DNA from: Rhizobium leguminosarum
GTDB taxonomy: Bacteria; Pseudomonadota; Alphaproteobacteria; Rhizobiales; Rhizobiaceae
Assembly (NCBI RefSeq): GCF_001679785.1
Contig: NZ_CP016291.1
Span: 201,604-265,603, forward strand
Length of the DNA: 64,000 bases
Reading direction: 5' to 3'
Part shown: positions 40,545 to 63,355 of the stretch, piece by piece
Position numbering within the stretch: the first letter of the stretch is position 1
Layout of the letters: each line of letters starts with the position of its first letter
Notes under the pieces: generated by a model
The model's input: only the letters and a program-made list of their open reading frames with translations
Database searches by the model: none
What the model was told of the DNA's origin: nothing
Position numbers and translations under genes: made by a program

Positions 40545-40595
40545 AGCTCATGTCCTTCCGGATCGTCGGGCCGATCTCCAAGGTGGGTGCCGGGT

Positions 40596-40949: not shown

Positions 40950-41610
40950 GAGCGATGCTTTCCAGAATGTCGTCGACATGGGCGGTCCAGCCGACGATCG
41001 CGCCCTGGGCGCGGATCATGGCGATGGCGGCGGCTTTGAATTCGGGGAAATAGCTTTCCGTCGCCTCCTCGGCGAGCAGGCATTCATAGCCGCGGTCGTT
41101 TGCTTCGCGCATCGTCGTCTGCACGCAGACTTCGGTGGTGACACCGGCAAAGACGAGCTGCTTGATGCCCTTCTGCTGCAGCACTGTGCCGAGGTCGGTC
41201 GCGTAGAAGGCGCCCTTGCCGGGTTTTTCGATAACGACTTCGCCCTTCACAGGAGCGAGTTCCGGAAGAATTGCCGTGCCGGGTTCGCCCGAGATCAGGA
41301 TGCGGCCCATCGGGCCTTCGTCGCCGATCCTGAGCGACGGATTGCCGCGATCGCGTTTGGCCGGTGGCAGGTCGGAGAGATCAGGCCGGTGGCACTCCAT
41401 CGTATGGATCACGGGCAGGCCGGCATTGCGGAAGCCCTGGATGAGACGTTTGACATCGGGCACGATCCTGGTGATGCGGCTGACGTCATTGCCGAGGCTG
41501 GCGCCGAAGCCGCCGGGCTCGGCGAAATCGCGCTGCATGTCGATGACGATGAGGGCGAGCTCATCGTGCTTCACCGGAAAGGCGAAAGGCTCTGCCTTGA
41601 TCTCCATCAT
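40942..41610 (-). CDS. Cysteine hydrolase, isochorismatase family (biuret-hydrolase paralogue)
   Basis: This 222-residue protein has triad Asp24 (VIDMQ), Lys129 (EKPGK) and Cys162 (TEVCVQT). It is clearly related to the biuret hydrolase three genes upstream, sharing [13 protein letters not shown], but is shorter at the N-terminus. In an operon for cyanuric acid use, a second ureide hydrolase (for example for triuret, ureidomalonate or ureidoacrylate-like compounds) is reasonable. The substrate is unproven. Its start overlaps the stop of the upstream ATPase gene by one base. Confidence 0.82.
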   Translation of the reverse strand: MMEIKAEPFAFPVKHDELALIVIDMQRDFAEPGGFGASLGNDVSRITRIVPDVKRLIQGFRNAGLPVIHTMECHRPDLSDLPPAKRDRGNPSLRIGDEGPMGRILISGEPGTAILPELAPVKGEVVIEKPGKGAFYATDLGTVLQQKGIKQLVFAGVTTEVCVQTTMREANDRGYECLLAEEATESYFPEFKAAAIAMIRAQGAIVGWTAHVDDILESIAHA

Positions 41611-43160: not shown

Positions 43161-43161
43161 T

Positions 43162-44217
43162 TCATTGCTCCTTTTCGACGATGATGGCGACGGGACCGCC
43201 GCCGGGCGGACCCTGGTGTTCGGCGCCGCCGGACACATAGAGATCGGTAATGCCGAAGATGCCGGCGAGAACGCCGCCGACGAAGGCACGGGCATGGCGG
43301 GTGCCTGCAATATCCGAGTCATCGAGCATCGTGTGGCGCCTGCCGCCGATCCTGCCGGACGGGTCCGGCTCGGCCTTGGCGAGAACCGCCGCCAGCCGGC
43401 TGTTTTCCGGCAGGCGTTCGCGGGCTTTCCTGACGGAATGCGCGTCGATCGCATCCCGCATGACCGCGTGGTCGATCGACAGCGGACCGGACCATTTTGC
43501 GCTCATGCCGAGGACGATGATTTCGTGATCGGTGAGTTCGACCCCGGACGAGGTTGAGGCGCAGCGGGAAAAGAGATCGAAACGTGTGCAGATGTCGGCA
43601 TCGTTGATCGATGTCGCATCTATCTCGCCGAGTGCCACGGCGACGCCGAGAGCCGAAGCGCCGCGCGAGAGGCCCATGGATTTCAGCGTGTCGTGGGTTG
43701 CGACCGTCCTGCCTGCTGCCTCGGCCTCGGCAATCCGGCGCGAGGTGAGCAGCGGACACTTGATCTGCACGAAATGGGCATCGGCGGGATCATCGATGCC
43801 GGCATCCCTCATCGCGGACTTCACGCCTTCGGCAACGAGTAGGATCTGTTCCCGGCGCCCGAGATGTTCGGGGGGCAGCGCGGGGGTACGCGACACACCA
43901 ATGGCCAGCGCCCGTTCGCCCGGGGTTTCTACGGTTTCACGCGCAAAAACCGTCCAATGCGGCGAGAGCGCACCCTCGGTGCCGCCGGACATGATGATCG
44001 AGACGCCGTCGACGCCATATCTACTGAACAATGTCTCGAAGCTGCGGGTGGCATAACCGCGGGTAAAATCATTGACGCAGCCGTTGCCTTCCGTCTTGCC
44101 GAGAACGGCGACGATGTTGTTCGCCTGAAGGCCGCTGGCAAAGAGCGCCTCGACGCCGGCAACGTCATCGGGGCCGTCGGCTGGCACGCGAAAGACATGG
44201 GCACGCAATGACGACAT
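43162..44217 (-). CDS. atzD: Cyanuric acid hydrolase / barbiturase family amidohydrolase
   Basis: This 351-residue ring-opening amidohydrolase of the AtzD/TrzD/barbiturase fold is built of three related domains, each with one Ser/Lys pair. I see SGG at 77-79, SSG at 223-225 and SGG at 329-331, with lysines at 41 (LGKTEGNGC), 153 (QIKCPLL) and about 281. It opens cyanuric acid to carboxybiuret, which loses CO2 to biuret. The next gene upstream is a biuret hydrolase, which favours cyanuric acid over barbituric acid. Start and stop codons touch those of the flanking genes. Confidence 0.9.
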   Translation of the reverse strand: MSSLRAHVFRVPADGPDDVAGVEALFASGLQANNIVAVLGKTEGNGCVNDFTRGYATRSFETLFSRYGVDGVSIIMSGGTEGALSPHWTVFARETVETPGERALAIGVSRTPALPPEHLGRREQILLVAEGVKSAMRDAGIDDPADAHFVQIKCPLLTSRRIAEAEAAGRTVATHDTLKSMGLSRGASALGVAVALGEIDATSINDADICTRFDLFSRCASTSSGVELTDHEIIVLGMSAKWSGPLSIDHAVMRDAIDAHSVRKARERLPENSRLAAVLAKAEPDPSGRIGGRRHTMLDDSDIAGTRHARAFVGGVLAGIFGITDLYVSGGAEHQGPPGGGPVAIIVEKEQ

Positions 44218-44918
44218 CAGGGTAGCGCCTCGACTAGAGCCGCGGAATTGGAGACTGAGCCGAAGACGCCGCCCTGCATCTTCACCATCTTGATGGCGGC
44301 GAGGTGGTTTCCGTAGTCGGTCGCACCACAGCAGTCTTCCAGCAGCAGGCATTCGTAGCCGCGGTCGTTTGCCTCGCGCATCGTCGTCGAGACGCAGACA
44401 TCGGTGGTGATTCCGGTGAGGATAATGTTCTCGATGCGCTTCTGGTTGAGGATGAGTTCGAGGTCGGTGGCGCAGAACGAACCCTTGCCGGGCTTGTCGA
44501 TGATCGTCTCGCCTTCGATCGGGTAGAGTTCGGGGATGATGTCCCAGCCGGGTTCGCCACGCGTCAGGATGCGGCCGCAGGGGCCGGGATCGCCGATGCC
44601 GGCCCCGATCCGCTGCGAGCGCCAGCGTTTGTTGGCCGGCAGATCGGCGAGGTCGGGGCGATGGCCCTCGCGGGTATGGATGATGTGGTAACCCTTGGCC
44701 CGCATGGCGGCAAGCACGCGTTTGATGGGTTCGATCGGCGCCTGCACCAGCGACAGGTCGTAGCCCATGTGGTCGACATAACCGCCCTTGCCGCAGAAAT
44801 CCGTCTGCATGTCGATGATGATGAGGGCGGTATTATCAGGCCTCAGAGCGCCGTTATAGGGCCACGGATACGGATCGGCGTCGATAAAATGCCGTTTGGT
44901 TTCGACCATCGCGTCCAT
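44217..44918 (-). CDS. biuH: Biuret amidohydrolase
   Basis: This 233-residue isochorismatase-family hydrolase converts biuret to allophanate and ammonia. Counting from the second of two adjacent ATGs, the triad falls at Asp36 (IIDMQT), Lys142 (DKPGK) and Cys175 (TDVCVST), the published numbering for the R. leguminosarum bv. viciae 3841 enzyme. The sequence appears nearly identical to it from memory. The gene overlaps the cyanuric acid hydrolase start by one base. Allophanate hydrolase is not in this window, so the last step must be encoded elsewhere. Confidence 0.93.
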
Positions 44919-44929
44919 CATTCTCTCTC

Positions 44930-45946
44930 CTATTCCGCGGCAGGTTTGAGGGGTTCGCCGTAACGGCGCATCGGCTTGTCAAATCCGCAGGACGTGCCGT
45001 CCTTGACCTTTATCTCGTCTTCCCATGGCAGGCGGTATTTGCCGGCGACAAGGTCGTGCATGTAGGTGTAGGGCGCATCCTGGGCGCCGCCCGCGACAGC
45101 GACATAGCCGCGATGGCCGAACTGGTAGATATTGTTCTCCACGCCCCAGCCGAGCCGGGCCTCGCGCACCAGGTCGGGACGCACCTCTGCGGTGATGATC
45201 TCGTTGACGCGGCCGGAGGTGCCGTGGGCGATGATCGTGCCATCGAAATTGCAGATCATGCCTTCGCCCATGGAATCGAACGTGCCGTCCGAGCCGCACA
45301 TGCAGACATTCGCGGTAACCATCAGGTTGCAGAAGGCGTTGGCCTGGTTGGTGAAGCGCCAGGCGTCGCGGATCGGCGCCGTGTAGCCCGCGGTGCGGAT
45401 CATGATTTCGGCGCCCTTATAGGCGCATTCGCGCGCCATCTCCGGGAACATGCCGTCATGGCAGATGATCAGCGCGAGCTTGGCGCCCCGCGGGCCCTTG
45501 ATGACAGGGATGCCAAGATCGCCGGGCTCCCAGGGCTCGACGGGGATCCAGGGATGCATCTTGCGGTAATAGAGCTTCAACTCGCCCTGATCGTCGATGA
45601 CGATGCCGGAATTGTAGGGCATGGCCCCAGGGTTCAGCTCCATGATCGAGAAGCAGCCCCAGATCCGGTTGTCCCTGCAGGCTTGCCTGAAGGCCGCGAC
45701 CTCTGGCCCGTCGAGCGTGCACATGATCTCCGGATTGATGTCCATGGAAAGGCCGTGCAGCGCGTATTCGGGAAAGACGACGAGGTCCATGCCCGGCTGG
45801 TTGCGCCGCGCTTTGGCCACCAGATCGACGATCACCTGCGTCTGTTTTGCCAAGTCCGCTTTGGTGACGGTCACCGGCAGCTGGAGCTGTACCAGGCCGA
45901 TACCGACGCCGTGTTCGGATTTGTTGAGACCGCCAAGTCCGTTCAT
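44930..45946 (-). CDS. amiF: Formamidase-like nitrilase-superfamily amidase
   Basis: This 338-residue aliphatic amidase/formamidase of the AmiF type has catalytic Glu60 (VFPEYALHG), Lys129 (YRKMHPW) and Cys162 (ICHDGMFPE). It should hydrolyse formamide to formate and ammonia. The conserved C-terminal region [19 protein letters not shown] is typical. It lies between the BMP-type permeases and the biuret hydrolase, so ammonia release fits a nitrogen-scavenging operon. It is not part of the textbook cyanuric acid path. Confidence 0.86.
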
Positions 45947-45958
45947 CGGAATGCTCCA

Positions 45959-46885
45959 TTATTTCGTGAGCGACAGCGCACCCGGCGCACCGGCGAGCGA
46001 GCGGGTGGGCGAGGAGGTGGCGATCAGGATGATGAGGGTGAGCACGTAAGGCGCGGCGTAAAAAAGGTAGTAGCCTTGTGTGACGCCGACCGATTGCAGC
46101 GCCGGGCCGAGCGCGCCGGCACCGCCGAAAAGCAGGGCAGCGAGGAAGCAGCCGATCGGGTTCCAGCGGGCGAAGATGACGAGGGCCACGGCCATCAGGC
46201 CCTGGCCCGACGAGATGCCTTCGTTCCATGAGCCCGGATAATAGAGCGAGAGATAGGCGCCACCGATTGCCGCCAGCGAGCCGCCCACTGCCGTCGCCAG
46301 CAGGCGAACCCGGTCGGGGTGGATGCCCATGGCCCGGGCCGCGTCGGTGCTGTCGCCGACGACGCGCAGGATCAGGCCGATGCGGGTGTTCTTGAAGGCC
46401 CAGAACAGGAAGAGGGCAAGTGCCGCGCCGATGAAAAACAGCACGTTGATATTGAGCGCCGCCTGGATCTGCGGCGTGCTCGACCAGCCGCCGAGCGGGA
46501 TCGAGGGCAGTTTCGGCGCCACCGGCTGGATGAAGGATTTGCCGAGGAAAAACGCCATGCCGAGACCGAACTGCATCATGGCGATGCCGATGGCAATGTC
46601 GTTGACCTTCGGGAGCTTGCAGATCCAGCCGTGGATGAGGCCGAAGATCGCGCCTGCCGCCATTGCGGCCAGCACGCCAAGGGTCGGCGAGCCGGTGATG
46701 ACGGCGACCGCATAGGCCGTCATGGCGCCGAAGACGAGCGTGCCTTCCAGGCCGAGATTGATGCGGCCGGAGCGCTCGGTGATCGTTTCGCCGAGGCTGA
46801 CGAAGATGAAGGGGGTGGAAACGCGGATGGCGCCCGCGAAGATCGCCAGCGGCACGCCCCAGATGCCGATGCCTGTCTCTTCCAT
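45959..46885 (-). CDS. BMP-family ABC permease (second), cyanuric acid operon
   Basis: This 308-residue inner-membrane permease has about eight to nine helices and the family block SLGETITERSGRINLGLEGT near residue 35. It pairs with the other permease, whose stop touches its start. I chose the ATG at 46885 because it gives the family-typical beginning. With the double ATPase and BMP-type binding protein it forms a nucleobase-like uptake system, plausibly for cyanuric acid, which resembles uracil in shape. Confidence 0.87.
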   Translation of the reverse strand: MEETGIGIWGVPLAIFAGAIRVSTPFIFVSLGETITERSGRINLGLEGTLVFGAMTAYAVAVITGSPTLGVLAAMAAGAIFGLIHGWICKLPKVNDIAIGIAMMQFGLGMAFFLGKSFIQPVAPKLPSIPLGGWSSTPQIQAALNINVLFFIGAALALFLFWAFKNTRIGLILRVVGDSTDAARAMGIHPDRVRLLATAVGGSLAAIGGAYLSLYYPGSWNEGISSGQGLMAVALVIFARWNPIGCFLAALLFGGAGALGPALQSVGVTQGYYLFYAAPYVLTLIILIATSSPTRSLAGAPGALSLTK

Positions 46886-48012
46886 CAGAGGCTCCTTTTC
46901 CAGAGGTCGGGATTGAAGATCTTGAAGCGGCCGTAGAAGGTCTCGCAGAACAGAATGACGATGAAGAGCGTGCCCTGCAGCACCAGAACCGTCGCATCCG
47001 GCAGGCCCATGCGCCGCTGGATGAGGCCGCCCGAGGCGTCGATGCCGCCGAGCAGGATCGCCACCGGAATGATCGCCAGCGGATTGTGCCTGGCGAGGAA
47101 GGCGACGAGGATGCCGGTATAACCATAGCCGGCCGCAAGCGAGGCGTTGGCACTTCCCTGCACCGCCGCCACTTCGATCATGCCCGCCAGGCCGGCAAAA
47201 CTGCCGGCAAGCGCGGTAAATCCGGCGATCAGCTTGCCGACCGGCAGCCCCTGGATCTGGGCGGCGCGCACGTTGCCGCCGGCGATGCGGGCGGCAAAAC
47301 CGTAGCTCGTCGCCTCGATCACGATCCAGGAGACCACGCAGGCGAGGATGCCGATGACCAGGCCCCAATGCACGTCCATGCCGGGAATATTGCCGAGCAT
47401 ATATTCCGCCGGCAGTGGCCTGGTCGACGGCTTGTTGAGGCTTGCCGGATCGCGCAGCAGCCCTTCGACGAACTGGTTCATCAGGGCAATGGCGATATAG
47501 GAGAGCAGCAGCGACGAGATGGTTTCGTTGACGCCGCGATAGTGGCGCAGGAAACCGGCAAGGCCGATCCAGATGCCGCCGACCACCATGGCGGCGATCG
47601 CCATCAGAATGAGGGTGAGGAAGACAGGCGCGGTGCCGGCGAGCGGCAGAGCCATGGCCGCGGCGGCAACGCCGCCCAGCACGACCGCTCCTTCCCCGCC
47701 GATGATGACGAGGCCGAGACGGGCGGGCAGGGCGACGCAGAGTGCCGTCAGGAGAAGGGGTGCGGCACGACTTAAGCTGTTCTGCACCGAAAACCAGCTG
47801 CCGAAGCCGCCGGTATACATCAGTTGAAAGAGGGTGGCCGGCGACTTGCCGACCGCCAGGATGAAGAGGGAGAAGAGCGCAAGACCGATCAGGATGGCCG
47901 CAAGGCCGATGACAACAGGCTCGGCCCGCCGCGCGATCCATTCGAGGACGGGGCGCAGGGAAGCCGGTTTTTCCGCGATGGCTATTGCGGGATCATTGGC
48001 CTCGATGGTCAT
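46885..48012 (-). CDS. BMP-family ABC permease (first), cyanuric acid operon
   Basis: This 375-residue permease has an N-terminal cytoplasmic extension and about ten helices. Family motifs are LVIIGGEGAVVLGG and the GYGYTGILVAFLARHNP region. It starts 20 bases after the binding-protein gene and overlaps the second permease by one base. It is the partner subunit of the same transporter. Confidence 0.87.
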   Translation of the reverse strand: MTIEANDPAIAIAEKPASLRPVLEWIARRAEPVVIGLAAILIGLALFSLFILAVGKSPATLFQLMYTGGFGSWFSVQNSLSRAAPLLLTALCVALPARLGLVIIGGEGAVVLGGVAAAAMALPLAGTAPVFLTLILMAIAAMVVGGIWIGLAGFLRHYRGVNETISSLLLSYIAIALMNQFVEGLLRDPASLNKPSTRPLPAEYMLGNIPGMDVHWGLVIGILACVVSWIVIEATSYGFAARIAGGNVRAAQIQGLPVGKLIAGFTALAGSFAGLAGMIEVAAVQGSANASLAAGYGYTGILVAFLARHNPLAIIPVAILLGGIDASGGLIQRRMGLPDATVLVLQGTLFIVILFCETFYGRFKIFNPDLWKRSL

Positions 48013-48032
48013 GGCGCTTCTCCCTTCGCGGT

Positions 48033-49160
48033 TTACGCCGTGGACCCGACGACGCCCTCGACCAGATAATTCATGCTTTCGAGCTCGATCGCGTCTTCGG
48101 CGTAGCTCTTGTCGGCAGCCACGACGGTGTCGCCCTGGTTGTCCTTCAACGGTCCCTTGAAGACCGAGAAACCGCCCTTCATCATGTCGGCCTGCGTGGC
48201 TTCGAAGGCCTTGCGGCCCTCGGCGGACACAGCGGGGCCAAGCGCGCTCATCTTCACGAAGCCGTCCTTCAGGCCGCCACGCACGAAATTGCCGAGCTTT
48301 TCGCCGGCCTGCGCCTTCTTGACGAAGTCGCCGTAGACGTTGCCCCAGGCCCATTCGGCGCCGGTGAGGTATTTTTCGGGAGCAAGCGGGCTCTGGTTGG
48401 CGTGATAGCCGCAGACGAAGGCGCCGCGGCCGGCAGCCGTCTCGACAACCACTTTGGGGCTGTCGACGTGGCAGGTGATGACGTCGGCGCCCTGGTCGAC
48501 CAGCGCATTGGTGGCTTCGGCCTCCTTGACGGCAAGAGACCATTCGCCGGTGAAGATCACCTGGCAGGTGATACCAGGATCGACTGTGCGCGCGCCAAGC
48601 AGGAAGGCGTTGATATTCTGCAGAACCTGCGGGATCGGCTTGGCGGCGACGAAGCCGATCTTCTTGCTCTTCGTCGCATGGCCGGCGGCAATGCCGTTCA
48701 GATACTGGCCCTGGAAGATATAGCCGAAATAGGAGCCCGTATTGGCCGGGTTCTTGCTTTCCTGCCAGAGGCCGCCGCAGTGGCGGAACTGGACGTCGGG
48801 ATGTTTGGCGGCCACGGCCAGCATGTGGGGGTCGAAGTAGCCGAAGGAGGTCGGAAAGAGCAGGGTCGCGCCATCCAGATTGATCATGGATTCCATCGTC
48901 TTCTGGACGTCGACGGTCTCCGGCACGTTCTCTTCTTCGACCAGCGTCACACCAGGCATCGCCTTGATGACGGCCGCACCTTCGGCATGCGCCTGGTTGT
49001 AGCCGTAGTCGTCCTTGGGGCCGACATAGATGAAGCCGACGGTCAGCGCGGTTTGGGCTGTGGCGGAGGAGGCGATCAGACCCGGCATGGCGCCGGCAAG
49101 CGCACCGGCAGCGGAAGCCTGGAGGAAATTGCGGCGGTTCATAGAAAGGAGTTTGGTCAT
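48033..49160 (-). CDS. BMP-family substrate-binding protein, cyanuric acid operon
   Basis: This 375-residue basic membrane protein (PnrA-like) has a twin-arginine leader (NRRNFLQ at about 8-14, hydrophobic core to about 33, cleavage near ATAQ). The mature part has the family IYVGPKDDYGYNQAH and TGSYFGYIFQGQYLNG blocks. The family binds nucleosides or nucleobase-like rings. As first gene of the operon, behind a sigma-54 promoter, it is the candidate cyanuric acid (or barbiturate) receptor. Confidence 0.88.
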   Translation of the reverse strand: MTKLLSMNRRNFLQASAAGALAGAMPGLIASSATAQTALTVGFIYVGPKDDYGYNQAHAEGAAVIKAMPGVTLVEEENVPETVDVQKTMESMINLDGATLLFPTSFGYFDPHMLAVAAKHPDVQFRHCGGLWQESKNPANTGSYFGYIFQGQYLNGIAAGHATKSKKIGFVAAKPIPQVLQNINAFLLGARTVDPGITCQVIFTGEWSLAVKEAEATNALVDQGADVITCHVDSPKVVVETAAGRGAFVCGYHANQSPLAPEKYLTGAEWAWGNVYGDFVKKAQAGEKLGNFVRGGLKDGFVKMSALGPAVSAEGRKAFEATQADMMKGGFSVFKGPLKDNQGDTVVAADKSYAEDAIELESMNYLVEGVVGSTA

Positions 49161-49214
49161 CGGAAATGCTCCTTGCGGCGCTGGGCCGGTTGCGAACGGG
49201 TACAGAAAAGTGCA

Positions 49215-49231
49215 TGCAATGCATGTGCCAG
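49215..49231 (-). promoter_or_regulatory. Sigma-54 promoter of the cyanuric acid operon
   Basis: Read on the minus strand, CTGGCACATGCATTGCA has the -24 GG and -12 GC separated by exactly ten bases (TGGCAC-N5-TTGC). It lies 55-71 bases upstream of the binding-protein start, giving a leader of about 45 bases. Sigma-54 control implies an activator such as NtrC and nitrogen-limitation response. The same bases contain the inverted repeat CATGCA-A-TGCATG. Confidence 0.75.
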
Positions 49232-49290
49232 AAATTAATCTATTGTTTTTTATAGTTTATCCGTTACAGCAAGACTTGCGCATTGCAAAG

Positions 49291-49474
49291 TGCATACAGA
49301 TTGATCGAATTCTTGCGTAAAAAGTAATCAATAGATATTTCTTGTTCATTGTGACTGCGTAGTTGGCACAAAGTCGAGTTACCCGAGGTATCTCGTGCAT
49401 CAGAAAGCGAAAATTTAACAATATCTTCGCCACCCGATTTGACTTATCAAGTCTCGAACTGCATCTGTATGCAG
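49291..49474. promoter_or_regulatory. Putative GntR operators in the divergent region
   Basis: CTGCAT-CTGT-ATGCAG (49459-49474) is a perfect six-base inverted repeat 27 bases before the GntR start, and its CTGTATGCA half recurs inverted as TGCATACAG at 49291-49299. Such sites suit FCD-type GntR proteins, suggesting autoregulation and control of the facing operon. Otherwise 49161-49500 is AT-rich and has no gene. Confidence 0.5.
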
Positions 49475-49500
49475 AGTGTTGATGTGAGCAGATTCGTATC

Positions 49501-53708: not shown

Positions 53709-54620
53709 TTATCGCTCGAATGGTTCGCCGAGCGAAGCGACGCCGTTCAGTTTCAGCAGGCGGCGGTCAGCGGAGATGATGCCGAGCACGATGATCGTGA
53801 CGAGATATGGCAGGCTCGAGAGCAGTTGCGAGGGAACGTCCAGTCCGGTTGCCTGGGCTGCAAGCCCCATCAGCGAGACCGCGCCGAACAGGCAGGCGCC
53901 GAGGAAGATACGGCCCGTGAGCCAAGTCCCGAAGACGACGAGGGCGATGGCGATCCAGCCGCGCCCGGCAATCATCCCGTCGGCCCAGAGTGGTGTATAG
54001 ACCACCGACGCATAGGCGCCGGCGAAGCCGGCCATCGCGCCGCCGAAGGCGATGGCGAGGACGCGGACTGATATCACCGAATAGCCGATGGCGTGAGCGG
54101 CCTTGGGATTCTCGCCGACGGCACGGACGATAAGACCAAGCTTGGTGTAGGCAAATATCGCCCACAAGGCCAGCGTCGCGGCAAGTGAAATCCACACGAC
54201 GATGTCCTGGACAAAAAGACTACCGATAACCGGCAGGTCCGAAAACCCGGGAAGGGCAAGCTTCGGAAGTCCCCTGACCGTGAGGCTTTCATAGGTCTTG
54301 CCGAAAAGTGCAGAAAGGCCCTGGCCAAGAATGCCGATGGCAAGGCCCGCCGCCACCTGATTTGCCCGGAATCCCAGCGTGACGAAGGCGAAGAGCAGTG
54401 AAAGGACAGCGCTGCCGAGCCCGGCGACGACGAAACCCAGGAGATGTCCGCCGCCCTGGTAGACGATAATGAAGGCGAGCACGGCGCCGAAGGCCATCAA
54501 TCCCTCGACCCCGAGGTTGAGGACGCCGGCGCGCTCGGCTACCAGCTCGCCGAGGGCTGCCAGAAGAAACGGTGTCGCAGCCGCCAGCATGCCGGCAAGA
54601 ATGAATTCGATGGCGTTCAT
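53709..54620 (-). CDS. BMP-family ABC permease (second), purine-type operon
   Basis: This 303-residue permease has about eight to nine helices and the block GELVAERAGVLNLGVEGLMAFG near residue 25. It is the last gene of the operon running from 61866 down to 53709. I chose the ATG at 54620, which overlaps the other permease's stop by four bases. It forms the channel with that permease. Confidence 0.87.
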   Translation of the reverse strand: MNAIEFILAGMLAAATPFLLAALGELVAERAGVLNLGVEGLMAFGAVLAFIIVYQGGGHLLGFVVAGLGSAVLSLLFAFVTLGFRANQVAAGLAIGILGQGLSALFGKTYESLTVRGLPKLALPGFSDLPVIGSLFVQDIVVWISLAATLALWAIFAYTKLGLIVRAVGENPKAAHAIGYSVISVRVLAIAFGGAMAGFAGAYASVVYTPLWADGMIAGRGWIAIALVVFGTWLTGRIFLGACLFGAVSLMGLAAQATGLDVPSQLLSSLPYLVTIIVLGIISADRRLLKLNGVASLGEPFER

Positions 54621-55717
54621 GATGGGCTCCGGTGAGCGCCCCGGCGCCATTCAAGGCGATAGCGCACGAAGGCGACGGCGATCAGGTAGGCGAGCAGCAG
54701 ACTGCCCTGGAAGACACGGACGGCGGCGATCGGCAGGTTGGCCGAGACCATGGCATTGTCGCCACCGATATAGATGACCGCCATGACCAGCGCCGAGACC
54801 ACGATGCCGATCGGATGCAGGCCGCCGAGATAGGCGACGATGATGGCCGCGTAGCCATAACCGCTCGCGACCGAACGCTGCAGCTGGCCGAGCGGACCGG
54901 CGACTTCGGCAGCCCCGGCAAGACCGGCTGCAAAACCACCGATCAGCAGCGAAAGCCAGATCGCCCAACCTTCCTTAAAGCCGGCATAGCCGGCAGCCCG
55001 CGGCGCCAGACCGCCGACCTGCAGCTTGTAACCGATGAAGCTCCTCTGCATGAAGACCCAGGCCGCAATCGACAAAGCCAGCGTGATGAGGAATGAGACA
55101 TTGACGCGGGTACCGGCAATCAGGGTCGGCACCATCGCATCATACTGAAACATCACCGACTGGGGGAAGTTGAAGCCATTCGGATCCTTCCAGGGGCCGA
55201 GCAGCAGATAGTTCAGCAGTTGCGCCGCCACGAGGCTCAGCATCAGCGAGACGAGGATCTCGTTGGCATTGAGGCGCACACGCCAGAAGGCGGTGAGCGA
55301 AGCCCAGAGAGCGCCGCCGATGGCGCCGAGCAACAGCATCGCCGGCCAGATCCATTGGCCTGTTGCCTGGGGAAACCAAACCGGAATGGCAGAGGCGAAG
55401 ATCGCGCCAAGAATGAACTGGCCTTCGGCGCCGATGTTGAAGACCTTGGCGCGAAAGCCGATCGCCAGCCCCTGTGCGATCAGAAGGAGCGGTCCTGCCT
55501 TGAGGAGTACTTCCGAAAATGATGCCCAGGAAAGGAAGGGCTCGAAAAGCATCGCATAGACAACCGCGACAGGGTCGCGGCCCATCAAAACGTAGAGGCC
55601 GAGATTAAGTGCGATCGCTCCCCCGAGCGCTATGACAGGTGCGCACAGGGCCGCGGCAAGCGAAGCGCGCTCCCGGCGGACCAGGGCGGGAACGAAAGCA
55701 AGGGACCAAGCGCTCAT
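54617..55717 (-). CDS. BMP-family ABC permease (first), purine-type operon
   Basis: This 366-residue permease has about ten helices. Family blocks are FRAKVFNIGAEGQFILGAIFAS and GYGYAAIIVAYLGGLHPIGI. Both its ends overlap neighbours by four bases, so ATPase, permease and permease are translationally coupled. It belongs to the nucleoside/purine uptake class. Confidence 0.87.
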   Translation of the reverse strand: MSAWSLAFVPALVRRERASLAAALCAPVIALGGAIALNLGLYVLMGRDPVAVVYAMLFEPFLSWASFSEVLLKAGPLLLIAQGLAIGFRAKVFNIGAEGQFILGAIFASAIPVWFPQATGQWIWPAMLLLGAIGGALWASLTAFWRVRLNANEILVSLMLSLVAAQLLNYLLLGPWKDPNGFNFPQSVMFQYDAMVPTLIAGTRVNVSFLITLALSIAAWVFMQRSFIGYKLQVGGLAPRAAGYAGFKEGWAIWLSLLIGGFAAGLAGAAEVAGPLGQLQRSVASGYGYAAIIVAYLGGLHPIGIVVSALVMAVIYIGGDNAMVSANLPIAAVRVFQGSLLLAYLIAVAFVRYRLEWRRGAHRSPS

Positions 55718-57237
55718 TGCTGGACTTTCTCAGGCGAGGTCTGTGCCCCGATCATGTATCGGCCGATCTCCTCGGGCTTCGTGTCCCGCGTTGCGAGCGG
55801 CGGGCTCAGCCGGCCGTGATGCAGCACCTGGATGGAATCGCAGAGCTCGAACAGTTCTTCCAGCTCCTCGGAAATGACGAGGATCGCCATGCCCTGATTG
55901 CGCAATGCGACCAGACGGCTGCGGATGGCTGACGCAGCGCCGATATCGACGCCCCAGGTCGGCTGCGCCAGGAAAAGCAATTTGGGAGACAGCATGATTT
56001 CGCGGCCAACGATGAACTTCTGCAGATTGCCGCCCGACAGGGTGCCGGCTTCCGCATCCGGGCCGGGTGTGCGCACATCATACTGACGGATGCAATCATC
56101 GGTGAACGCCGTCGCCCGCGCCCTGTCGATGATGCCACGCCGCAAAAGCTTGAGCGGATGGGCAGTCAGCAGGCTGTTGAGGACGAGCGACATTTCGGGC
56201 ACGGCCCCGCGTCCGAGCCGGTCTTCCGGAACGAAGGCAAATCCGAGCGTCCGCCGCCCGGCGGCATCGAGCCTGCCGACATCCATCCCCATCATGTAGA
56301 TCCGGTCGCGCTGGTCGCGCCCCAGCACCGTCTCGCCTGAAATCAAGGCGGCAAGCTCGCTTTGACCGTTGCCCGAAATACCGGCGATCCCGAGGATTTC
56401 GCCGGCACGCACCTCGAGGCTGATGCCGGAGAGCGGCACCGCAAAGGGATCGTCGGGCTGATAGTCCAGACCGATGATCTCCAGCCGCTTTTCGCCACCA
56501 GACAGTGGCAGCGCCGCCATCGGCGCCGGCATGTCATGGCCGATCATCATGCGGGCAAGGTCATGGGCATCATGTTGACGCGGGTCGACATCCCCGGTCA
56601 CGCGTCCGCCGCGCAGGATCGTCGCCCGGTCGCAGATCGCCCGAATTTCTTCGAGCTTGTGGGAGATCAACAGGATGGAAACCCCGCCGTCACGCAGCCG
56701 ACGCAGCGTGTCGAAGAGCCTCTCCACCAGTTGCGGCGGCAGGACGGAGGTGGGCTCGTCGAGGATCAGCAGCTTCGGATTGGTCATCAGGCTTCGGATG
56801 ATCTCCACCCGTTGCCGTTCGCCGACGGACAGTGCATGCACATGGGCAAGCGGGTCGACTTCGAGGCCGAATTCCCGTCCAAGCGTCCGAATACGTTCCT
56901 TGAGCTCAGCCTTGCGGCCCGGCACGACCAGCCGAATATTCTCCAGGACAGTCAGGGTCTCGAACAGCGAGAAATGCTGGAAGACCATGCCGATGCCATT
57001 GCGCCTCGCCTCGGCGGGGGAGGCGAGGCGCAACGGATCTCCTTCCCAGATGACCTCTCCGCCGTCCGGTTGCTCGACGCCGTAGATCAGCTTCATCAGC
57101 GTCGATTTTCCCGCCCCGTTTTCCCCGAGGATCGCATGAATCGATTGCGGCGCCACGTCCAGATCGATGGCCTGATTGGCATGGATCTGGCCATAGCTCT
57201 TCGAAATGCCGCGCAGCGACAGGAGCGGGGTGGTCAT
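55714..57237 (-). CDS. BMP-family ABC transporter double ATPase, purine-type operon
   Basis: This 507-residue protein has two ABC domains. The first has GENGAGKST, SVGERQRVEII and LDEPTSVLPP. The second has the degenerate Walker A around AGISGNGQSEL and a signature SGGNLQK. It energises the two adjacent permeases. It is a separate system from the one at 41610-49160, with its own binding protein three bases upstream. Confidence 0.88.
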   Translation of the reverse strand: MTTPLLSLRGISKSYGQIHANQAIDLDVAPQSIHAILGENGAGKSTLMKLIYGVEQPDGGEVIWEGDPLRLASPAEARRNGIGMVFQHFSLFETLTVLENIRLVVPGRKAELKERIRTLGREFGLEVDPLAHVHALSVGERQRVEIIRSLMTNPKLLILDEPTSVLPPQLVERLFDTLRRLRDGGVSILLISHKLEEIRAICDRATILRGGRVTGDVDPRQHDAHDLARMMIGHDMPAPMAALPLSGGEKRLEIIGLDYQPDDPFAVPLSGISLEVRAGEILGIAGISGNGQSELAALISGETVLGRDQRDRIYMMGMDVGRLDAAGRRTLGFAFVPEDRLGRGAVPEMSLVLNSLLTAHPLKLLRRGIIDRARATAFTDDCIRQYDVRTPGPDAEAGTLSGGNLQKFIVGREIMLSPKLLFLAQPTWGVDIGAASAIRSRLVALRNQGMAILVISEELEELFELCDSIQVLHHGRLSPPLATRDTKPEEIGRYMIGAQTSPEKVQQ

Positions 57238-57240
57238 GAC

Positions 57241-58338
57241 TTATTTCGGCAGCGGCGTGGACACGCCCTTGACGTGCCAGTTCATGGCGATGATCTCGGG
57301 GTCGGCCATGGTCGCACCCGATGCGACAGCTTCGCTGCCGTCGGCCTTGGCGATCGGCCCGGTGAAGGGCGAGAAGCTGCCGTCGGCGATCTTTACCTCG
57401 ATCTCCTTGATCTTGGTCATCACGTCAGCCGGAATATCAGGATTCCAGTCGACCACTTCGACGACCTTGTCGGCAACGCCGAGGAACGCATTGGCGCCCT
57501 TGAAGGTACCGGCAAGGTGGGCATCGACCGAAGCCTTGAAGAACGGCGACCAATCCGTCGCGATGCAGCCGAGATAGGTTTTCGGCGCATATTTCTTCAT
57601 CGAGGAATTGAGGTTGAAGGCGTAGACGCCGGCTTCCTCACAGGCCGAGATGACAGACGGCGTGTCCTGGGCGTTGGAGAAGATCACGTCGCACTTCTGC
57701 GCGATCAGGGCCTTGGCGGCTTCCTGCTCCTTGGCCGGATCGAACCATGAGTTCACCCAGACCACCGAGACCTCGATATCGGGTTTGACGGCCTGGGCGC
57801 CGAGCGTAAAGGCGTTGATCGAGGTAATGAGCTCGGGGATGGCAAAGGCGGAGACAGAGCCGAGCTTGCCGGTCTTGGAAAGTGCTGCGGCAGCCATGCC
57901 GAGCAGATAGGTGCCCTGGAAATATTTGGCGGCGAAGGGCGAAAAGTTTGGAGCGACCTGGAAGCCGGAGGCGTGCAGGACCGTGACGCTCGGATCGCGG
58001 CGGGCGATCTGCAAGGCGCCGTTCTGATAGCCGAAAGAGCCGGCGATCAGGAACTTGTTTCCATCGGCGACCGTCTTGTTCATGATGCGGTCGGCGTCCG
58101 GGCCTTCGGCGATATTCTCGAGCACGGTGACCTTCACCTTGTCGCCGTAAGCGGCCTTGATCGGCTCGAGACCGGCGGCAAGCGCATGCCCCCAGCCAAC
58201 GTCGCCGACGGGCGAGGGGATTACCAGCGTGATGCCGAGCGGCTCGTCGGCGGCGAAAGCAAGGCGGCTGCCGAGCACACCGGCAAGGCCGGTGGCGGCA
58301 GCGGCCGTCATCAGGTTTCTGCGGGTCAGTTTGGTCAT
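57241..58338 (-). CDS. BMP-family substrate-binding protein, purine-type operon
   Basis: This 365-residue basic membrane protein family member has a signal peptide with TRRN (about 5-8) and a hydrophobic run to about 28, possibly Tat. The mature part has VIPSPVGDVGWGHALAAGLEPI and QGTYLLGMAAAALSKTG. The family binds nucleosides, purines or related rings. The neighbouring guanine-deaminase-family enzyme points to a purine-like ligand. Confidence 0.88.
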   Translation of the reverse strand: MTKLTRRNLMTAAAATGLAGVLGSRLAFAADEPLGITLVIPSPVGDVGWGHALAAGLEPIKAAYGDKVKVTVLENIAEGPDADRIMNKTVADGNKFLIAGSFGYQNGALQIARRDPSVTVLHASGFQVAPNFSPFAAKYFQGTYLLGMAAAALSKTGKLGSVSAFAIPELITSINAFTLGAQAVKPDIEVSVVWVNSWFDPAKEQEAAKALIAQKCDVIFSNAQDTPSVISACEEAGVYAFNLNSSMKKYAPKTYLGCIATDWSPFFKASVDAHLAGTFKGANAFLGVADKVVEVVDWNPDIPADVMTKIKEIEVKIADGSFSPFTGPIAKADGSEAVASGATMADPEIIAMNWHVKGVSTPLPK

Positions 58339-58362: not shown

Positions 58363-59739
58363 TTAAAATTCCACGGTGGATAGTGCGGCCTCGGCATCGG
58401 CAGCCAGTTTGGCTTCGTCGAGCCCGGGAAATTCGCCATTCTGCCAGACGATGCGGCCATTGATCATGGTCATATCCGTTGCCATGCCAATGCCGACGCG
58501 GGCAATCAAGCTCAGCGGATCGTGGCGTGTGCCGACATAATCCATGCGCCGAGTGTCGATCGCAAACAGGTCGGCGGCCATGCCGGGCGCAAGCCGGCCG
58601 ATATCGCGCCGGCCGAGCAGGCTGGCACCGCCGGTCGTGCCGTAGCCGAGGAAATCGACCGGCGGCGGCACCGGATGGGCACGGCTGGAGGAGACGAGGC
58701 ATTGCAGCATGTAGGCGGAGTGCAGGCAGTGCATCAGGTTGGAATTGTCGTTGGAGGCAGCACCATCGCAGCCGAGGCCGACGCGCAGGCCAAAGGCGGC
58801 CATGGCCGGAATGTCGGTGACCTCCGCGCCGACCAGATAGACCGGTTCCGGGCAATGCGCGACGCCGGTGCCGCTGGCCGCCATCTTCCTGAGTTCGTCG
58901 TGGTTGAGCTCCCAGCAATGGGCATAGAAGGTATCAGGCCCGGCAAAGCCAAGTTCTTCCAGATAGTCGACAGTACGCATGCCGTGGCGCGCCTGAATGA
59001 CCGGGCTTTCGCCTTCGCCGACATGGGTATGCATCATGACGCCGCGATCGCGCGCCAGCGCCACCGATTCCAGGAAAGTCTCGCGGTAGCAATTGACCGG
59101 CTGACAGGGTGCCACCACGACCTGGCGCATACTGAAGGGGCTGGTATCGTGATAGGTGTCGATCAGCCGGGCGCAATCGGCGATGAATTCGTCGGTCGTT
59201 TCCAGCATCTCGTCGGGAATGGTCGAGCCTTCCGACTTCGGCAGGGTGTTGCCGCCGCGGCCGGCATGGAAGCGCATGCCGAGCAGTTCGGCGGCTTCGA
59301 ACTGGCGGTCGATCAACCGCTTTCCGGCGTGCCGGGGGAAATTATATTGGTGATCCAAGGCCGTGGTGCAGCCATGCTTGATCATCTCGGCCATCGCCGT
59401 GACGGAGGCGTGGTAAAAGCATTCCTCGTTGAGTTGCGAAAAGATCGGGTAGATGCGGTCCAGCCACTCGATCACCGAGAGCTTCGTCCAGTCGAGATCG
59501 GCACGGTTGCGCACGAAGCACTGGAAGAAGTGATGATGGGTGTTGACGAGGCCCGGATAGACAAACCAGCCAGGGCATCCTGAACGGTCGTGCCGGCAGG
59601 CAGCGCTTCCGCCGCAGATTTTCACCGATCGCCATAATCGCCGGACCGTTGGTCAGGAGATCGATATTGCGATGGACGACCGCCCTTTGCCCTCGTCGAC
59701 AATCACGGCTGCGCAGTTCTTCAGGAGATATCCAGCCAC
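58363..59739 (-). CDS. Guanine deaminase-family amidohydrolase, 5' end frameshifted
   Basis: The intact part (to about 59570) is a metal-dependent amidohydrolase of the 8-oxoguanine/isoxanthopterin deaminase group: metal ligands in NTHHHFFQ, a His in HTHVGEGES, a His in FYAHCWEL and Asp in LGCDGAASND. The first 55 or so residues are spread over three frames. Restoring one G/C in runs near 59574, 59613 and 59684 gives a normal start at GTG 59739 (AGYLLKNCAAVIVDEGKG). It should deaminate an imported purine or pterin to its oxo form. It lies 24 bases upstream of the binding-protein gene. Confidence 0.8.
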
Positions 59740-59740
59740 C

Positions 59741-60380
59741 TCACGCCTCGCCCGGTTCGATTTGAGGTTCGGGCTTCAGCTCGTGCAGCCGGTGAATACC
59801 TGGCATCTCGATAAATTTGTCGAGGCACGCAGCGCACCAGAGCCCGGCAGATAAGCATCCAGCGCGTGACGCCCCCATCGGGAGCCAGCGCCACATAGGG
59901 AAAGCAAGCGATGTCGGCAATTGTCGGCCGGTCGGCGGAGGAAGCGCATGCCGCGAAGGCCCTGCTCGACGAGCCCGGCTTCAAGCTCGCGAAGGGCGGC
60001 GATGCCCTGAGCCTGCAGCGCGCCGATGTCGCCGGGCCGCAGCAGCATTTCATGGAGCCGCGCTGCCCCGAGGCTTGCCGTCAACCGGCCGGAGAATGAC
60101 AGCCTGCAGCGCGCCGCTTCCTCGGCCTTGTCGCTGCCGAGCCACTCGGGTGCCGCCATAGCGGCGAGATAAACGAGGATCGCCGACGACTCGGTCAAGA
60201 TCAGGTCGCCATCAGGATCGGAATGGAGCCGGCCGGATTGAGTGCAAGCAGTTCGGGGCCGCGATGCTCGGCGCCGGGATGGAAATCCACCGGGCGCAGG
60301 TCAAGCTTCACGCCGGTCAGCGCCGCCATCAGGCGCACCTTGTAGCAACTGGGCGAGAGAATATAGTCGTAGAGCTTCAT
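59741..60380 (-). pseudogene. Glutathione S-transferase-like protein, frameshifted (NdmE-like candidate)
   Basis: Joining frames gives a protein of about 212 residues. The thioredoxin-like N-terminus starts MKLYDYILSPSCYKVRLM and runs through NPAGSIPIL, TESSAIL and a helical C-terminal domain with TIADIACFPYV. At least three indels separate the pieces (near 60213, 59945 and 59850). Its ATG overlaps the stop of the oxygenase gene by four bases, and its stop touches the amidohydrolase start. A GST-like subunit beside a Rieske-less oxygenase is the arrangement of NdmE in the caffeine N7-demethylase. Ordinary glutathione conjugation is the alternative. Confidence 0.72.
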
Positions 60381-61220
60381 TGCGCCACCAGCTGTGCGCC
60401 GTAGGTATAGTTGTGGCGCTTCAGCCAGCGCCGGTAGGCGATCGACGTCAGATCGGCCCGCGTCGGGATTTCCATGCCGGGGTCGAGCGGCAACAGCCGC
60501 GGGATCTGGTTTTCGAGGATCGAACGGTCCTGCAGAAAGATCGTCTGCTGGAAGTGGATGAGGTCGGTCATCGCGGTCTCGTCATCGAAGAGCGCCATCC
60601 ACGGCCAGACGTCGCAGAGGTCCTCGGCCAGCGGCTGCACGAAGAGCGTGATGACATCCCATTCGCTCGGCGCGGGCGGGCAGGTCTTGTAAAGCACGGA
60701 GCAGGTGGGTGCCGGCACGCGGTACATATATTCCGTCGTGATCCCGCCACTTGCCGACTTGGCCGCCTGCGGCTGGTAAAATTTCACCTGCGTTGCCCAG
60801 ACCTCGTCTTCTTCCTCGCGGATCTCGACCTTGTAGTTCTGGACCTCGGTGTGCGGCTCCGCGCCGAGAATATCGGTGTGGACAAAGGGAATGGGCGATG
60901 TCGAGGAAGTTCTCGACGGCGCGGAGCGGCGAGCAGCGCACGCGCACCACGCCGACATCGACGAAGCGGCGGCCGGGTTGATCGGCCTCGGGAATGGGGA
61001 AAAGTTCCTTCTTCGGCTCGCCGAGGGAGGACCATACATGACCGTAACGGACGCGCACCGGCAGAGCACGCCCATCGCCGCGCGTCACCTTCGCATTGCC
61101 ATCGGCATCGCGCGCCACTTCGATCGGCTCGCCCATCAGCGCCGTCTTGCGGCCGGCGCTGTCGAGCTGGCTGAAAAGCCCGACCGGATACCATTCATCG
61201 ATCATCGCCTGCATGGTCAT
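60377..61220 (-). pseudogene. Rieske-less non-heme iron oxygenase (NdmC-like), one frameshift
   Basis: About 280 residues. The N-terminus looks like that of ring-hydroxylating oxygenases (DEWYPVGLF), but the Rieske CxH/CxxH block is missing: the chain passes directly to YGHVWSSLGEP. The catalytic domain then follows, with the iron histidines in LDIAH / PFVHTDILG and a C-terminus RADLTSIAYRRWL. One frameshift lies at about 60890, between those two halves. Lack of its own Rieske centre is the mark of NdmC, which needs a separate Rieske donor. The donor may be the gene overlapping upstream by four bases. Confidence 0.78.
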
Positions 61221-61866
61221 TGCGCGATCTCCTTTTTTCTGAAGATCCTCAGCCCGACGCCGCAGGCCTTCGGCGGTCCGTGAAGCGCCGATGCCCGCGC
61301 AAGGCCGGCATCACCCTTCAGCAGCACATGGATCAGCGTCTGTCCGTCTTCTTGGGGGATAATAGCAGACAGACGACCCGGTGGATGCATCGATCTCGAC
61401 AAGACCATCAGGGTCCGCCTTGGCGCCGGCTACCGCCTCGATCGCGGCGATGCCGGCGAACGCCGTCAGGGAGCGCAAGGGAATGAGGCCTTCGAGCCTC
61501 GGCGGCTTCGATACAGGCGTACCCACGGCCACCCAGATCACACTGTCCGCTTCCTCGACATCATGGGTGGCGACGCGGATGGTTTCCGGTGGCGTCAGCC
61601 CCGGATGGGCCGGAATGCGGAGACAGTTTCCGGCCTGGCCATAGCTCCAGCCGTGATAGATGCAGGAGAGCGCCTCGCCGCGCACGAAACCGTGGGACAA
61701 ACGCATGCCGCGATGCGGACAGCGATCCGCCGAGGCGGATATGCGCCCGAAGCGCTGCGCCACAGGGCATCGATCCGGCTGCCGTCCGTGCCGGCATGAC
61801 GGTTCCGGCCGGCAAATCCCGGGAAAGGGCGACTGGCGTCCAAAAGCCCGTCGTATCGGAAGGCAT
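61217..61866 (-). pseudogene. Stand-alone Rieske [2Fe-2S] protein, frameshifted
   Basis: Joined frames give about 215 residues starting MPSDTTGFWTPVALSRDLP. The Rieske cluster motif is complete (CPHRG then CIYHGW, in the single intact frame of 61311-61763). After about residue 100 comes a segment I do not recognise, ending RIFRKKEIAQ. Indels lie near 61785, 61755 and 61398. No FMN/NADH reductase domain is attached. It is first in the operon and probably passes electrons to the Rieske-less oxygenase; the reductase that feeds it is not in the window. Confidence 0.75.
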
Positions 61867-62021
61867 GACTAGAATTCCCAAACAAAACCAAATGCTTGCC
61901 GATCAAGTCCCGCATCGGCGCCGAGGCAATTCCGCCGCAACCTTATCAGGTTTGCATAATTATTTCGCATTGGCAACATTGAGTAAATAATATGCACGGA
62001 TGAAATACGCGAGAGCCCGGA

Positions 62022-62288
62022 CTAGGTCCTTTCGCCGCTGATCGCCGCTCGATCTATCCTCTCGACCCACACGTCGATAGGCCCGAGAGAGCATCCCATC
62101 TCCATCATGTCGATCAACTCCTCCGGCCCGGCAACCTCAAGTTCGATCCGCATGGAACTCGTATGAGATATGGTGTGCGAGAGCCCAAGCTTGGCAGCGT
62201 GGCGCCGGATCCAGGGAACGAAGGAGGCAGCCCCCAGATCACCGACAATCGTCATCCGTTCTAGAAGGTAGGTTGTATCTTGTCCCAT
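62022..62288 (-). CDS. Small degenerate acylphosphatase-like protein
   Basis: This 88-residue protein has the acylphosphatase-like pattern FVPWIRRHAAKLGL, ELEVAGPEELIDMMEMGCSLGP and VERID. The usual catalytic Arg of the GFR loop is replaced (SFVPW), and the conserved Asn after the next strand is also absent. It may therefore be non-catalytic. A GGAG site lies just before the ATG. It sits between the LysR-type gene and the Rieske gene on the same strand. Its function is unknown. Confidence 0.65.
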   Translation of the reverse strand: MGQDTTYLLERMTIVGDLGAASFVPWIRRHAAKLGLSHTISHTSSMRIELEVAGPEELIDMMEMGCSLGPIDVWVERIDRAAISGERT

Positions 62289-62460
62289 GCTCGCTCCTTG
62301 TTTTCCTACACCAAAAGCGCTTGAATGAACTTCGGGAAGGGGTCGCCGTCAAGGCAAGATATGGCGTCGGAATTTCCTTTGCAAATCCCTGCGGCAACAT
62401 ACCAATTCCCCGGCACCGTAAGGCTGCTTCGGAGCAACTCAGGCTCCGTGATGGCGCAGC

Positions 62461-63355
62461 CTAGCCGGGCGAGCGACCGTTCGTAAGCATTGCGACAAAA
62501 GCCGTGACTTTGGGTGTGCGGAACCGAGCTGCCGGATAGACGACATAGATTCCTCCGGCCGGCAGGCTCCAGTCCGGCAACAATCTTATCAGTCGGCCAG
62601 CCTCTATATGCTCTCCAGCCAGAAAATCCGGCAGGACGGATATGCCTGCCCCCGCAAGCGTGGCCGCGAGAACCGCAGGTGTCGAATTGCTCATGAGGCT
62701 TTGTTGCATCCGCACGGTCCGCCGGTCGAAATCGCCCTGGACAAACCTCCAGACCACCGGCTCCTTGAGGGCCAGGTTGGCGATAAACGGCTGGCCCGCC
62801 GCATCCCTCTGGACTGTTCAAACTGAGCGTGGCGAAGAAGCTGGGGGACGCCACAAGCAACTGCCGGAACGAACCGATCCGTCTCGCTTGATGACTGGAG
62901 TCATCGAGCCAACCAACGCGGATCGACAGGTCGATCTGATTGGCGAGCAAATCCATCTTCGTATCGGCGAGCAGAAGCTCCACCCTGCAAGCGGGGTACT
63001 TCTGGATAAAGGCCGCAGCGATCGGAGCGATCGTGCTCACACCATAATCATTGGGCGCAGCAATGCGTAGCATGCCGGTCGGCTCGGCATTTGCGCGGGT
63101 GATTTCACCGACCGCGTCCCCGGCTTCGCGGAAAATCATGACGCAGCGCGCGTAGAGAAGCTTGCCGGCCTCAGTCGGCTCAACGCGTCGTGTTGTCCGG
63201 AGAAGCAAGCTGGTTTTCAACTCAGCTTCCAGCCGCGCAACCTGCTGGCTGACGACCGTCTTCGTGATCGCGAGGCGCTCGGCAGCTTTCGTGAACGAGC
63301 CGGTATCGACGACGGCTGCAAAATAGGCCAGCCGATTGAGGTTGACAGCCTCCAT
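62461..63355 (-). pseudogene. LysR-family regulator, one frameshift
   Basis: About 297 residues when joined: the N-terminal helix-turn-helix (FTKAAERLAITKTVVSQQVARLE) and effector domain run to about residue 180, then the frame changes near 62812 and continues (VWRFVQGDFDRRTVRM, GAGISVLPDFLAGE) to a stop at 62461. It is of the common small LysR group. It lies upstream of the Rieske-oxygenase operon on the same strand and divergent from the DsbA-like gene. Its target is not evident. Confidence 0.78.

Follow-up and report, generated by a model that had tools for sequence, protein, structure and literature searches.

A conserved rhizobial operon for a putative three-protein Rieske oxygenase related to NdmCDE

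Operon Layout

The window analyzed here is a stretch of 64,000 nt from Rhizobium leguminosarum (GCF_001679785.1, NZ_CP016291.1 positions 201,604–265,603). On its minus strand, from 61866 to 59741, it carries the trio under study: genes for a Rieske protein, for an oxygenase devoid of a Rieske motif, and for a glutathione S-transferase (GST)-like protein. The stop and start codons of these genes overlap, and the three overlapping minus-strand genes proposed in a preliminary description of the window were recovered at the positions listed below. That description likened them to NdmCDE, reportedly identified by Summers et al. in 2013 as the 7-methylxanthine N7-demethylase of Pseudomonas putida CBB5. 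Downstream of the trio follow, in order, an amidohydrolase, a BMP-type substrate-binding protein, an ABC ATPase, and two permeases.

61217..61866 (start ~61866), minus strand: Rieske [2Fe-2S] protein with an apparently vestigial catalytic domain at its C-terminus (Pfam Rieske PF00355; whole-length structural match to Rieske oxygenases); frame-broken
60377..61220, minus strand: oxygenase with a non-heme iron site and a cluster-less Rieske-like N-terminal shell (VanA_C PF19112, invariant residues, structure); frame-broken
59741..60380, minus strand: GST-like protein, homologous to NdmE (Pfam GST_N in the intact homologue; grouping with NdmE); frame-broken
58363..59739, minus strand: amidohydrolase related to 8-oxoguanine deaminase (NCBIfam PRK08203; nearest PDB chain 7ww2); start region frame-broken
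57241..58338, minus strand: BMP-family substrate-binding protein of an ABC importer (BMP family annotation in pRL10)
55714..57237, minus strand: ABC transporter ATP-binding protein (pRL10 annotation)
54617..55717, minus strand: ABC transporter permease 1 (pRL10 annotation)
53709..54650, minus strand: ABC transporter permease 2 (pRL10 annotation)

Pfam matches in the window itself placed PF00355 in one frame and PF19112 in another. Because the window genes are frame-broken, their frames were left unmended and intact copies from relatives were analyzed instead. The pRL10 copy of R. johnstonii 3841 (L029, L179) has the same gene order and overlaps and is intact, with a Rieske protein of 216 aa, an oxygenase of 281 aa, and a GST of 219 aa; the longest oxygenase piece of the window is 99% identical to it across residues 111–281. 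The intact amidohydrolase homologue scored 371.6 bits against PRK08203, under the curated cut-off of 532 for membership in the 8-oxoguanine deaminases.

Conservation of the Trio

Window-type loci were taken as the best 80 of 211 oxygenase relatives from a scan of named genomes. The trio was full-length in 79 of them (Rhizobium, Mesorhizobium, Ensifer, and others); in L084, the one exception, both the oxygenase and the GST carry breaks. Matches of at least 55% identity to every one of the eight operon genes (trio, amidohydrolase, and BMP-type ABC transporter) were present in 78/80, including L084; of the other two, the stretch of L085 ends early and L068 is without the amidohydrolase. An arrangement kept this consistently is not due to chance, and the operon is real, widespread, and conserved.

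The CxH...CxxH motif of Rieske centers was present in 80/80 Rieske proteins of these loci. In the oxygenases it was found in 0/79, so the Rieske center whose presence would have undone the preliminary description did not appear, while D..H....H occurred in 79/79. The catalytic domain of the oxygenase is of VanA_C type, as the Pfam match of the intact homologue also shows, and it carries a 2-His-1-carboxylate iron site. Between them, the two chains hold both the motif and the iron site by which the Rieske non-heme iron oxygenase superfamily is recognized.

Matches to oxygenase alignments were found in 27/398 genomes of the phylum (E 1e-20), 10/385 of the class, and 66/397 of the order (E 1e-30), counts that include some one-chain oxygenases as well as the window's own genome where it was drawn. 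A single-protein search at E 1e-3 gave matches in 52/100 relatives.

For comparison, 66 stretches with Rieske-less oxygenases and 15 with one-chain oxygenases only were chosen, not drawn at random; L248, fetched for its reductase, stands outside the 15, and the total of 76 Rieske-less oxygenases counts two pieces of one broken L223 gene separately. Among the 66, a free Rieske gene was present in 43, a Rieske domain fused to a reductase in 17, and neither in the stretch in 6. A partner-type GST was found in 59/66 of these loci and in 0/15 of those with one-chain oxygenases only, one of which has another GST. Before the count, three GSTs were excluded manually as non-partners (that of L115 and the second GSTs of L151 and L209).

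In four stretches (L103, L104, L120, and L156), two distinct Rieske-less oxygenases are accompanied by a single Rieske gene and a single GST gene. Their neighbors include xanthine-dehydrogenase-like, GMC-oxidase, and deaminase genes, and partly also aldehyde-dehydrogenase and adenine-deaminase genes.

Proposed Mechanism and Electron Donor

In structure models, the Rieske protein and the oxygenase each aligned nearly full-length to a complete Rieske oxygenase subunit. The modeled oxygenase retains the flanking strands of the Rieske domain without the cluster, and the modeled Rieske protein retains a shrunken catalytic domain. In ordinary Rieske oxygenases, the electron passes from the Rieske center of one subunit to the iron of the neighboring subunit, a route between subunits that is a hallmark of the family. 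Since the electron crosses between subunits, two complementary half-dead subunits could form working alpha'-to-alpha interfaces. In CntA, the Rieske center and the iron it serves are described as lying in neighboring subunits of a head-to-tail trimer (PMC7948474), and alpha3-alpha'3 hexamers are listed among Rieske oxygenases in a 2025 review (PMC12445004).

The best overall explanation, to which we assign a probability of roughly 0.65, is that the operon imports a purine-like compound and oxidizes it with a three-protein Rieske oxygenase made of complementary, half-degenerate subunits. The Rieske protein (alpha') would bear only the [2Fe-2S] cluster and the oxygenase (alpha) only the mononuclear iron, the other domain being degenerate in each. 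Electrons would run from NADH through a flavin/[2Fe-2S] reductase encoded elsewhere to the Rieske cluster, and from there via a bridging Asp107 to an iron held by His110, His115, and Asp232. All four of these residues were invariant in 34/34 oxygenase sequences, and the Rieske protein likewise has four invariant cluster ligands; the roles given to these residues are putative and follow from analogy. The GST-like protein would be a structural subunit that holds or folds the Rieske/oxygenase pair, in a predicted alpha3-alpha'3-GST3 complex, and the amidohydrolase would act on the product or the substrate. Loss of glutathione-binding residues was rejected as an argument for this structural role, the motif pattern being unmatched in 31/57 partner GSTs and in 11/21 background GSTs. 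If each chain has lost one center, every working interface must join the Rieske center of one to the iron of the other, which opens both the electron path and the function of the GST to direct test.

Several observations weigh against this reading. A search of up to 10 kb on each side of the 80 window-type loci gave no NdmD-like reductase; the best reductase match in the window's own genome has 34% identity and lies in an unrelated-looking operon, whose adjacent genes resemble ones for methylamine oxidation; and the trio-bearing relatives G018, G027, and G033 gave no reductase match in their genomes at E 1e-20. The Rieske gene was missing in 6/66 Rieske-less stretches (L213, L216, L218, L219, L241, and L247) and the partner-type GST in 7/66 (L212, L215, L216, L219, L221, L241, and L247). 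Here, L212/L213, L217/L218, and L241/L242 are adjacent pieces of the same contigs and complement each other, the Rieske gene of L215 lies at the end of its stretch, and L221 has a fused Rieske domain well inside its stretch and no recognized GST. By sequence alone, the free-Rieske tails gave a weak match to the oxygenase catalytic domain (Prob 4.9, E 0.008) and none to that of the one-chain enzymes (Prob 0.2), the tail signal coming mainly from NdmD tails (Prob 86.7, E 4e-6). Neither frmA nor fghA was found in the 80 window-type loci at E 1e-20, with one 27% match far away in the window. Finally, in the window copy the trio, the start of the amidohydrolase, and a neighboring LysR gene are all frame-broken, the oxygenase being spread over two frames.

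A dedicated reductase in the window's own genome was considered and rejected, as similar matches occurred in relatives with and without the trio and none in the three trio-bearing genomes named above. A free Rieske gene lies near a separate reductase gene in L161, L220, and L228, which fits a free Rieske protein taking electrons from an NdmD-like reductase. In L220 (8109–12276), the free-Rieske trio, a separate reductase gene, and a one-chain Rieske oxygenase stand side by side, and one reductase might serve both kinds of oxygenase there.

Substrate and Chemistry

The BMP-type importer family was present in 42/66 Rieske-less stretches, and related loci also hold adenine-deaminase, xanthine-dehydrogenase-like, and further deaminase genes. 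Together with an amidohydrolase related to guanine and 8-oxoguanine deaminases, these neighbors point to a purine substrate class, and the enzyme probably works on purine-like compounds. Oxidative N-dealkylation of an N-methylated or N-alkylated purine would be the most likely chemistry, at about even odds. N-demethylation is plausible for the Rieske-less family as a whole and may apply to the window-type branch. A glutathione-dependent formaldehyde dehydrogenase (50% identity or more) was encoded in 5/17 stretches with a fused Rieske domain, 2/43 with a free one, and 0/15 with one-chain oxygenases only. The two free-Rieske loci are L153, where it adjoins the GST and is accompanied by fghA, and L161, where it lies behind the importer.

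The lack of formaldehyde genes in the window-type stretches weakens the case for demethylation, and it would suit a different reaction, namely hydroxylation of the purine ring or removal of a bulkier N-substituent, for instance the side chain of a cytokinin. Related loci in which the oxygenase is paired with adenine-deaminase, xanthine-dehydrogenase-like, aldehyde-dehydrogenase, and GMC-oxidase genes lend this some weight, as such neighbors would suit purine products and the release of an aldehyde from a larger group. Against it stand frmA genes located close to certain relatives, including two whose Rieske protein is free, and the literature matches listed on bacterial cytokinin degradation with Rieske enzymes, among which nothing was relevant. 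We regard this alternative as possible but less likely than not.

Frame Breaks in the Window Copy

Approximately two dozen insertions and deletions (indels) are clustered in the window at 58.4–62.4 kb (58364–62409), and none of them occurs in the three relatives compared. Relative to R. laguerreae, there are 0–2 indels per kb at 40–58 kb, then 9, 4, 6, and 4 per kb at 59–62 kb, and 2 at 63 kb, so that hardly any fall within the 18 kb to the left. Nearly all of the clustered indels are not multiples of three, and some are intergenic. As a control, two intact relatives compared with R. johnstonii showed 7 and 4 indels over a comparable stretch of the operon, of which one per relative lies inside the trio, each a multiple of three. 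Substitutions in the broken genes were mostly silent: 39/50 in the oxygenase (11 not silent), 26/37 in the GST, and 21/35 in the Rieske gene.

The density of frame-breaking changes could mean that the genes are dead in the window strain and form a pseudogene cluster. We consider this unlikely, as the substitutions are mostly silent, like those in neighboring intact genes, and as the indels extend through the adjacent LysR gene, the deaminase, and intergenic DNA, as a local assembly error would. The combination of clustered indels and mostly silent substitutions is better explained by a local assembly error, or by loss in the very recent past, than by old decay. The window assembly (8.57 Mb, 4.27 contamination) also has two equal-scoring reductase matches on two contigs (G000:C5:151056–151958 and G000:C7:153418–154320), and it may hold a duplicated or foreign replicon.

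Origin of the Two Chains

A combined profile of Rieske tails scored 30.8 against the oxygenases, above 60/60 shuffles (maximum 14.9), and more weakly, 16.2, against one-chain catalytic domains, again above 60/60 shuffles (maximum 12.2). A simple cut of one Rieske-oxygenase gene at the domain boundary, with the Rieske tail as an unrelated add-on, would agree with the slight sequence similarity of the free-Rieske tails to the catalytic domain. However, it sits poorly with these profile scores, with the nearly full-length match of both chains to whole subunits, and with the Rieske-domain strands kept by the oxygenase, and we find it distinctly unlikely. Judged by the models, duplication of a subunit followed by reciprocal loss seems to describe the system better than a plain split.

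Trees were built for all three proteins. The careful oxygenase tree contained 70 of 105 rows, from which near-copies, long-branched one-chain rows (including NdmA/NdmB), and L241 had been dropped; a second tree contained all 105, and oxygenase pieces below 260 aa (L161 and two of L223) were omitted from both. A branch with support 100/99 set the Rieske-less oxygenases apart in the 70-row tree, and they separated likewise in the 105-row tree. Split Rieske proteins separated from one-chain Rieske domains with support 94, on few columns. In the GST tree, which used 21 of 22 other GSTs of the window's own genome, 65 partner GSTs were split from 24 others with weak support (64), while a group with support 94 held all 65 plus two others (the second GST of L151 and one own-genome GST). 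By eye, the GST sub-branches broadly mirror those of the oxygenases. As split oxygenases, split Rieske proteins, and partner GSTs each group together, a single origin of the three-part machine is likely, though not proven.

All of this could be joined in a broader reading that we hold at even odds. A subunit gene would have been duplicated and its copies would have decayed reciprocally, one keeping the Rieske center and the other the iron, to give an obligate alpha/alpha' hetero-oligomer. The GST would have been recruited once, and the rhizobial free-Rieske form would be sister or ancestral to the caffeine NdmCDE, whose NdmD would carry the same vestigial domain. In certain genomes, two different catalytic chains may depend on a single Rieske/GST pair. 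The reciprocal decay of duplicated subunits appears to be a new idea here, and it would give NdmCDE an evolutionary explanation.

Other Rieske systems resemble the trio in part. The one-chain Rieske oxygenases beside BMP-ABC importers (e.g., L114 and L162–L167) are its nearest one-chain relatives in the trees and share the importer family, but they carry both metal centers on one chain and have no partner-type GST (0/15 loci). The solved structures of SxtT/GxtA and NdmA/NdmB share the fold of the whole subunit, whereas each is a single chain with both centers and acts on other substrates. The two-chain chlorophyllide a oxygenase of Micromonas, reportedly described by Kunugi et al. in 2013, is not known to have a GST. 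In PMC9615114, that enzyme is a Rieske oxygenase formed of two polypeptide chains, likely, for example, as a trimer of dimers; it differs from the trio in its eukaryotic algal host and chlorophyll substrate, and is likened here by description, not by sequence.

Relation to NdmCDE

The P. putida plasmid L176 carries the caffeine cluster, and two of its oxygenases match PDB NdmA and NdmB almost throughout. Its NdmC was 44% identical to the window-type oxygenase over 276 aa (E 2e-83), compared with 30% for a one-chain relative. The window-type Rieske protein was 39% identical to the N-terminus of NdmD over 115 aa, and the GST 41% identical to NdmE over 205 aa. Both systems thus have a Rieske-less catalytic chain, a separate Rieske center, and a GST-like third protein, required in NdmCDE, all three parts being homologous. 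They differ in that the Rieske domain of NdmD is fused to an FNR-type reductase, whereas the window type has a free Rieske protein of 216 aa and no reductase nearby, and in that the window type lies on another branch, with other gene neighbors. In the trees, the oxygenase grouped with NdmC and the GST, weakly, with NdmE, in line with the preliminary description, which staked its case on neither being remote. The caffeine NdmC lies within a branch of fused systems (99/96). A second branch (84/80) holds the remaining fused systems and includes two free ones; the window-type oxygenases belong to a free-Rieske branch (100/92). These comparisons make the window type a sister of NdmCDE whose Rieske protein is free, and not NdmCDE itself.

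A true NdmCDE orthologue, that is, a 7-methylxanthine N7-demethylase whose Rieske protein is unjoined to the reductase, would account for the identities to NdmC and NdmE, the one common Rieske-less group, and the place of NdmE inside the GST group, but is very unlikely given the separate, supported branch of the caffeine NdmC, the absent Rieske–reductase fusion and formaldehyde genes, and the 18-kb pRL10 stretch, which holds no further Rieske oxygenase and where an amidohydrolase follows instead.

The NdmCDE-like split of the preliminary description stood in that the oxygenase, the Rieske protein, and the GST are homologous to NdmC, the NdmD Rieske domain, and NdmE, and in that the Rieske protein is free. 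The N-demethylase activity that it proposed is putative for the window type, which has no formaldehyde genes in its stretches and lies on another branch than NdmC. Its claim of novelty outside Pseudomonas did not stand, because ndmCDE-like clusters in 18 further organisms, three close ones named and the rest predominantly Sinorhizobium and Mesorhizobium, are already reported in PMC4408171. The fused form is present in S. meliloti. On its plasmid pB (L180), the host group, the three parts, and an adjoining BMP-ABC importer agree with the window type, while the Rieske–reductase is fused (588 aa) and no amidohydrolase is annotated in the stretch. The free-Rieske form did not appear in the titles and abstract openings of the literature matches listed on Rieske demethylases, split or heteromeric Rieske oxygenases, and rhizobial purine use, a coverage outside which the 2013 NdmCDE paper falls. 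NdmCDE is reported as 3:3:3, with NdmC alone going to inclusion bodies (PMC10380055), and the structure of the complex is described as unsolved in PMC13237722. The window type would add many simpler relatives of NdmCDE, free of the reductase fusion and carried by common rhizobia.

Other Features of the Window

Two further genes precede the operon on its strand:

62306..63355, minus strand: LysR-type regulator (Pfam HTH_1 and LysR_substrate); frame-broken in the window
62022..62288, minus strand: acylphosphatase-like small protein, 88 aa (Pfam PF00708, score under the family cut-off)

The LysR gene is intact at the equivalent place in L029/L179, but a match of at least 80% identity was found in only 6/80 window-type loci, and it is not a fixed part of the operon. 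The acylphosphatase-like gene lies between LysR and the operon, likewise in the close relatives inspected; it is annotated as acylphosphatase in pRL10 and R. laguerreae and has no obvious role. At ~40000–49500, the window holds a second BMP-ABC importer cluster with an AtzD-like ring-opening amidohydrolase, isochorismatase-family hydrolases, and a formamidase, as read from the annotated R. laguerreae counterpart (L205). This is probably another ring-cleaving, nitrogen-scavenging pathway.
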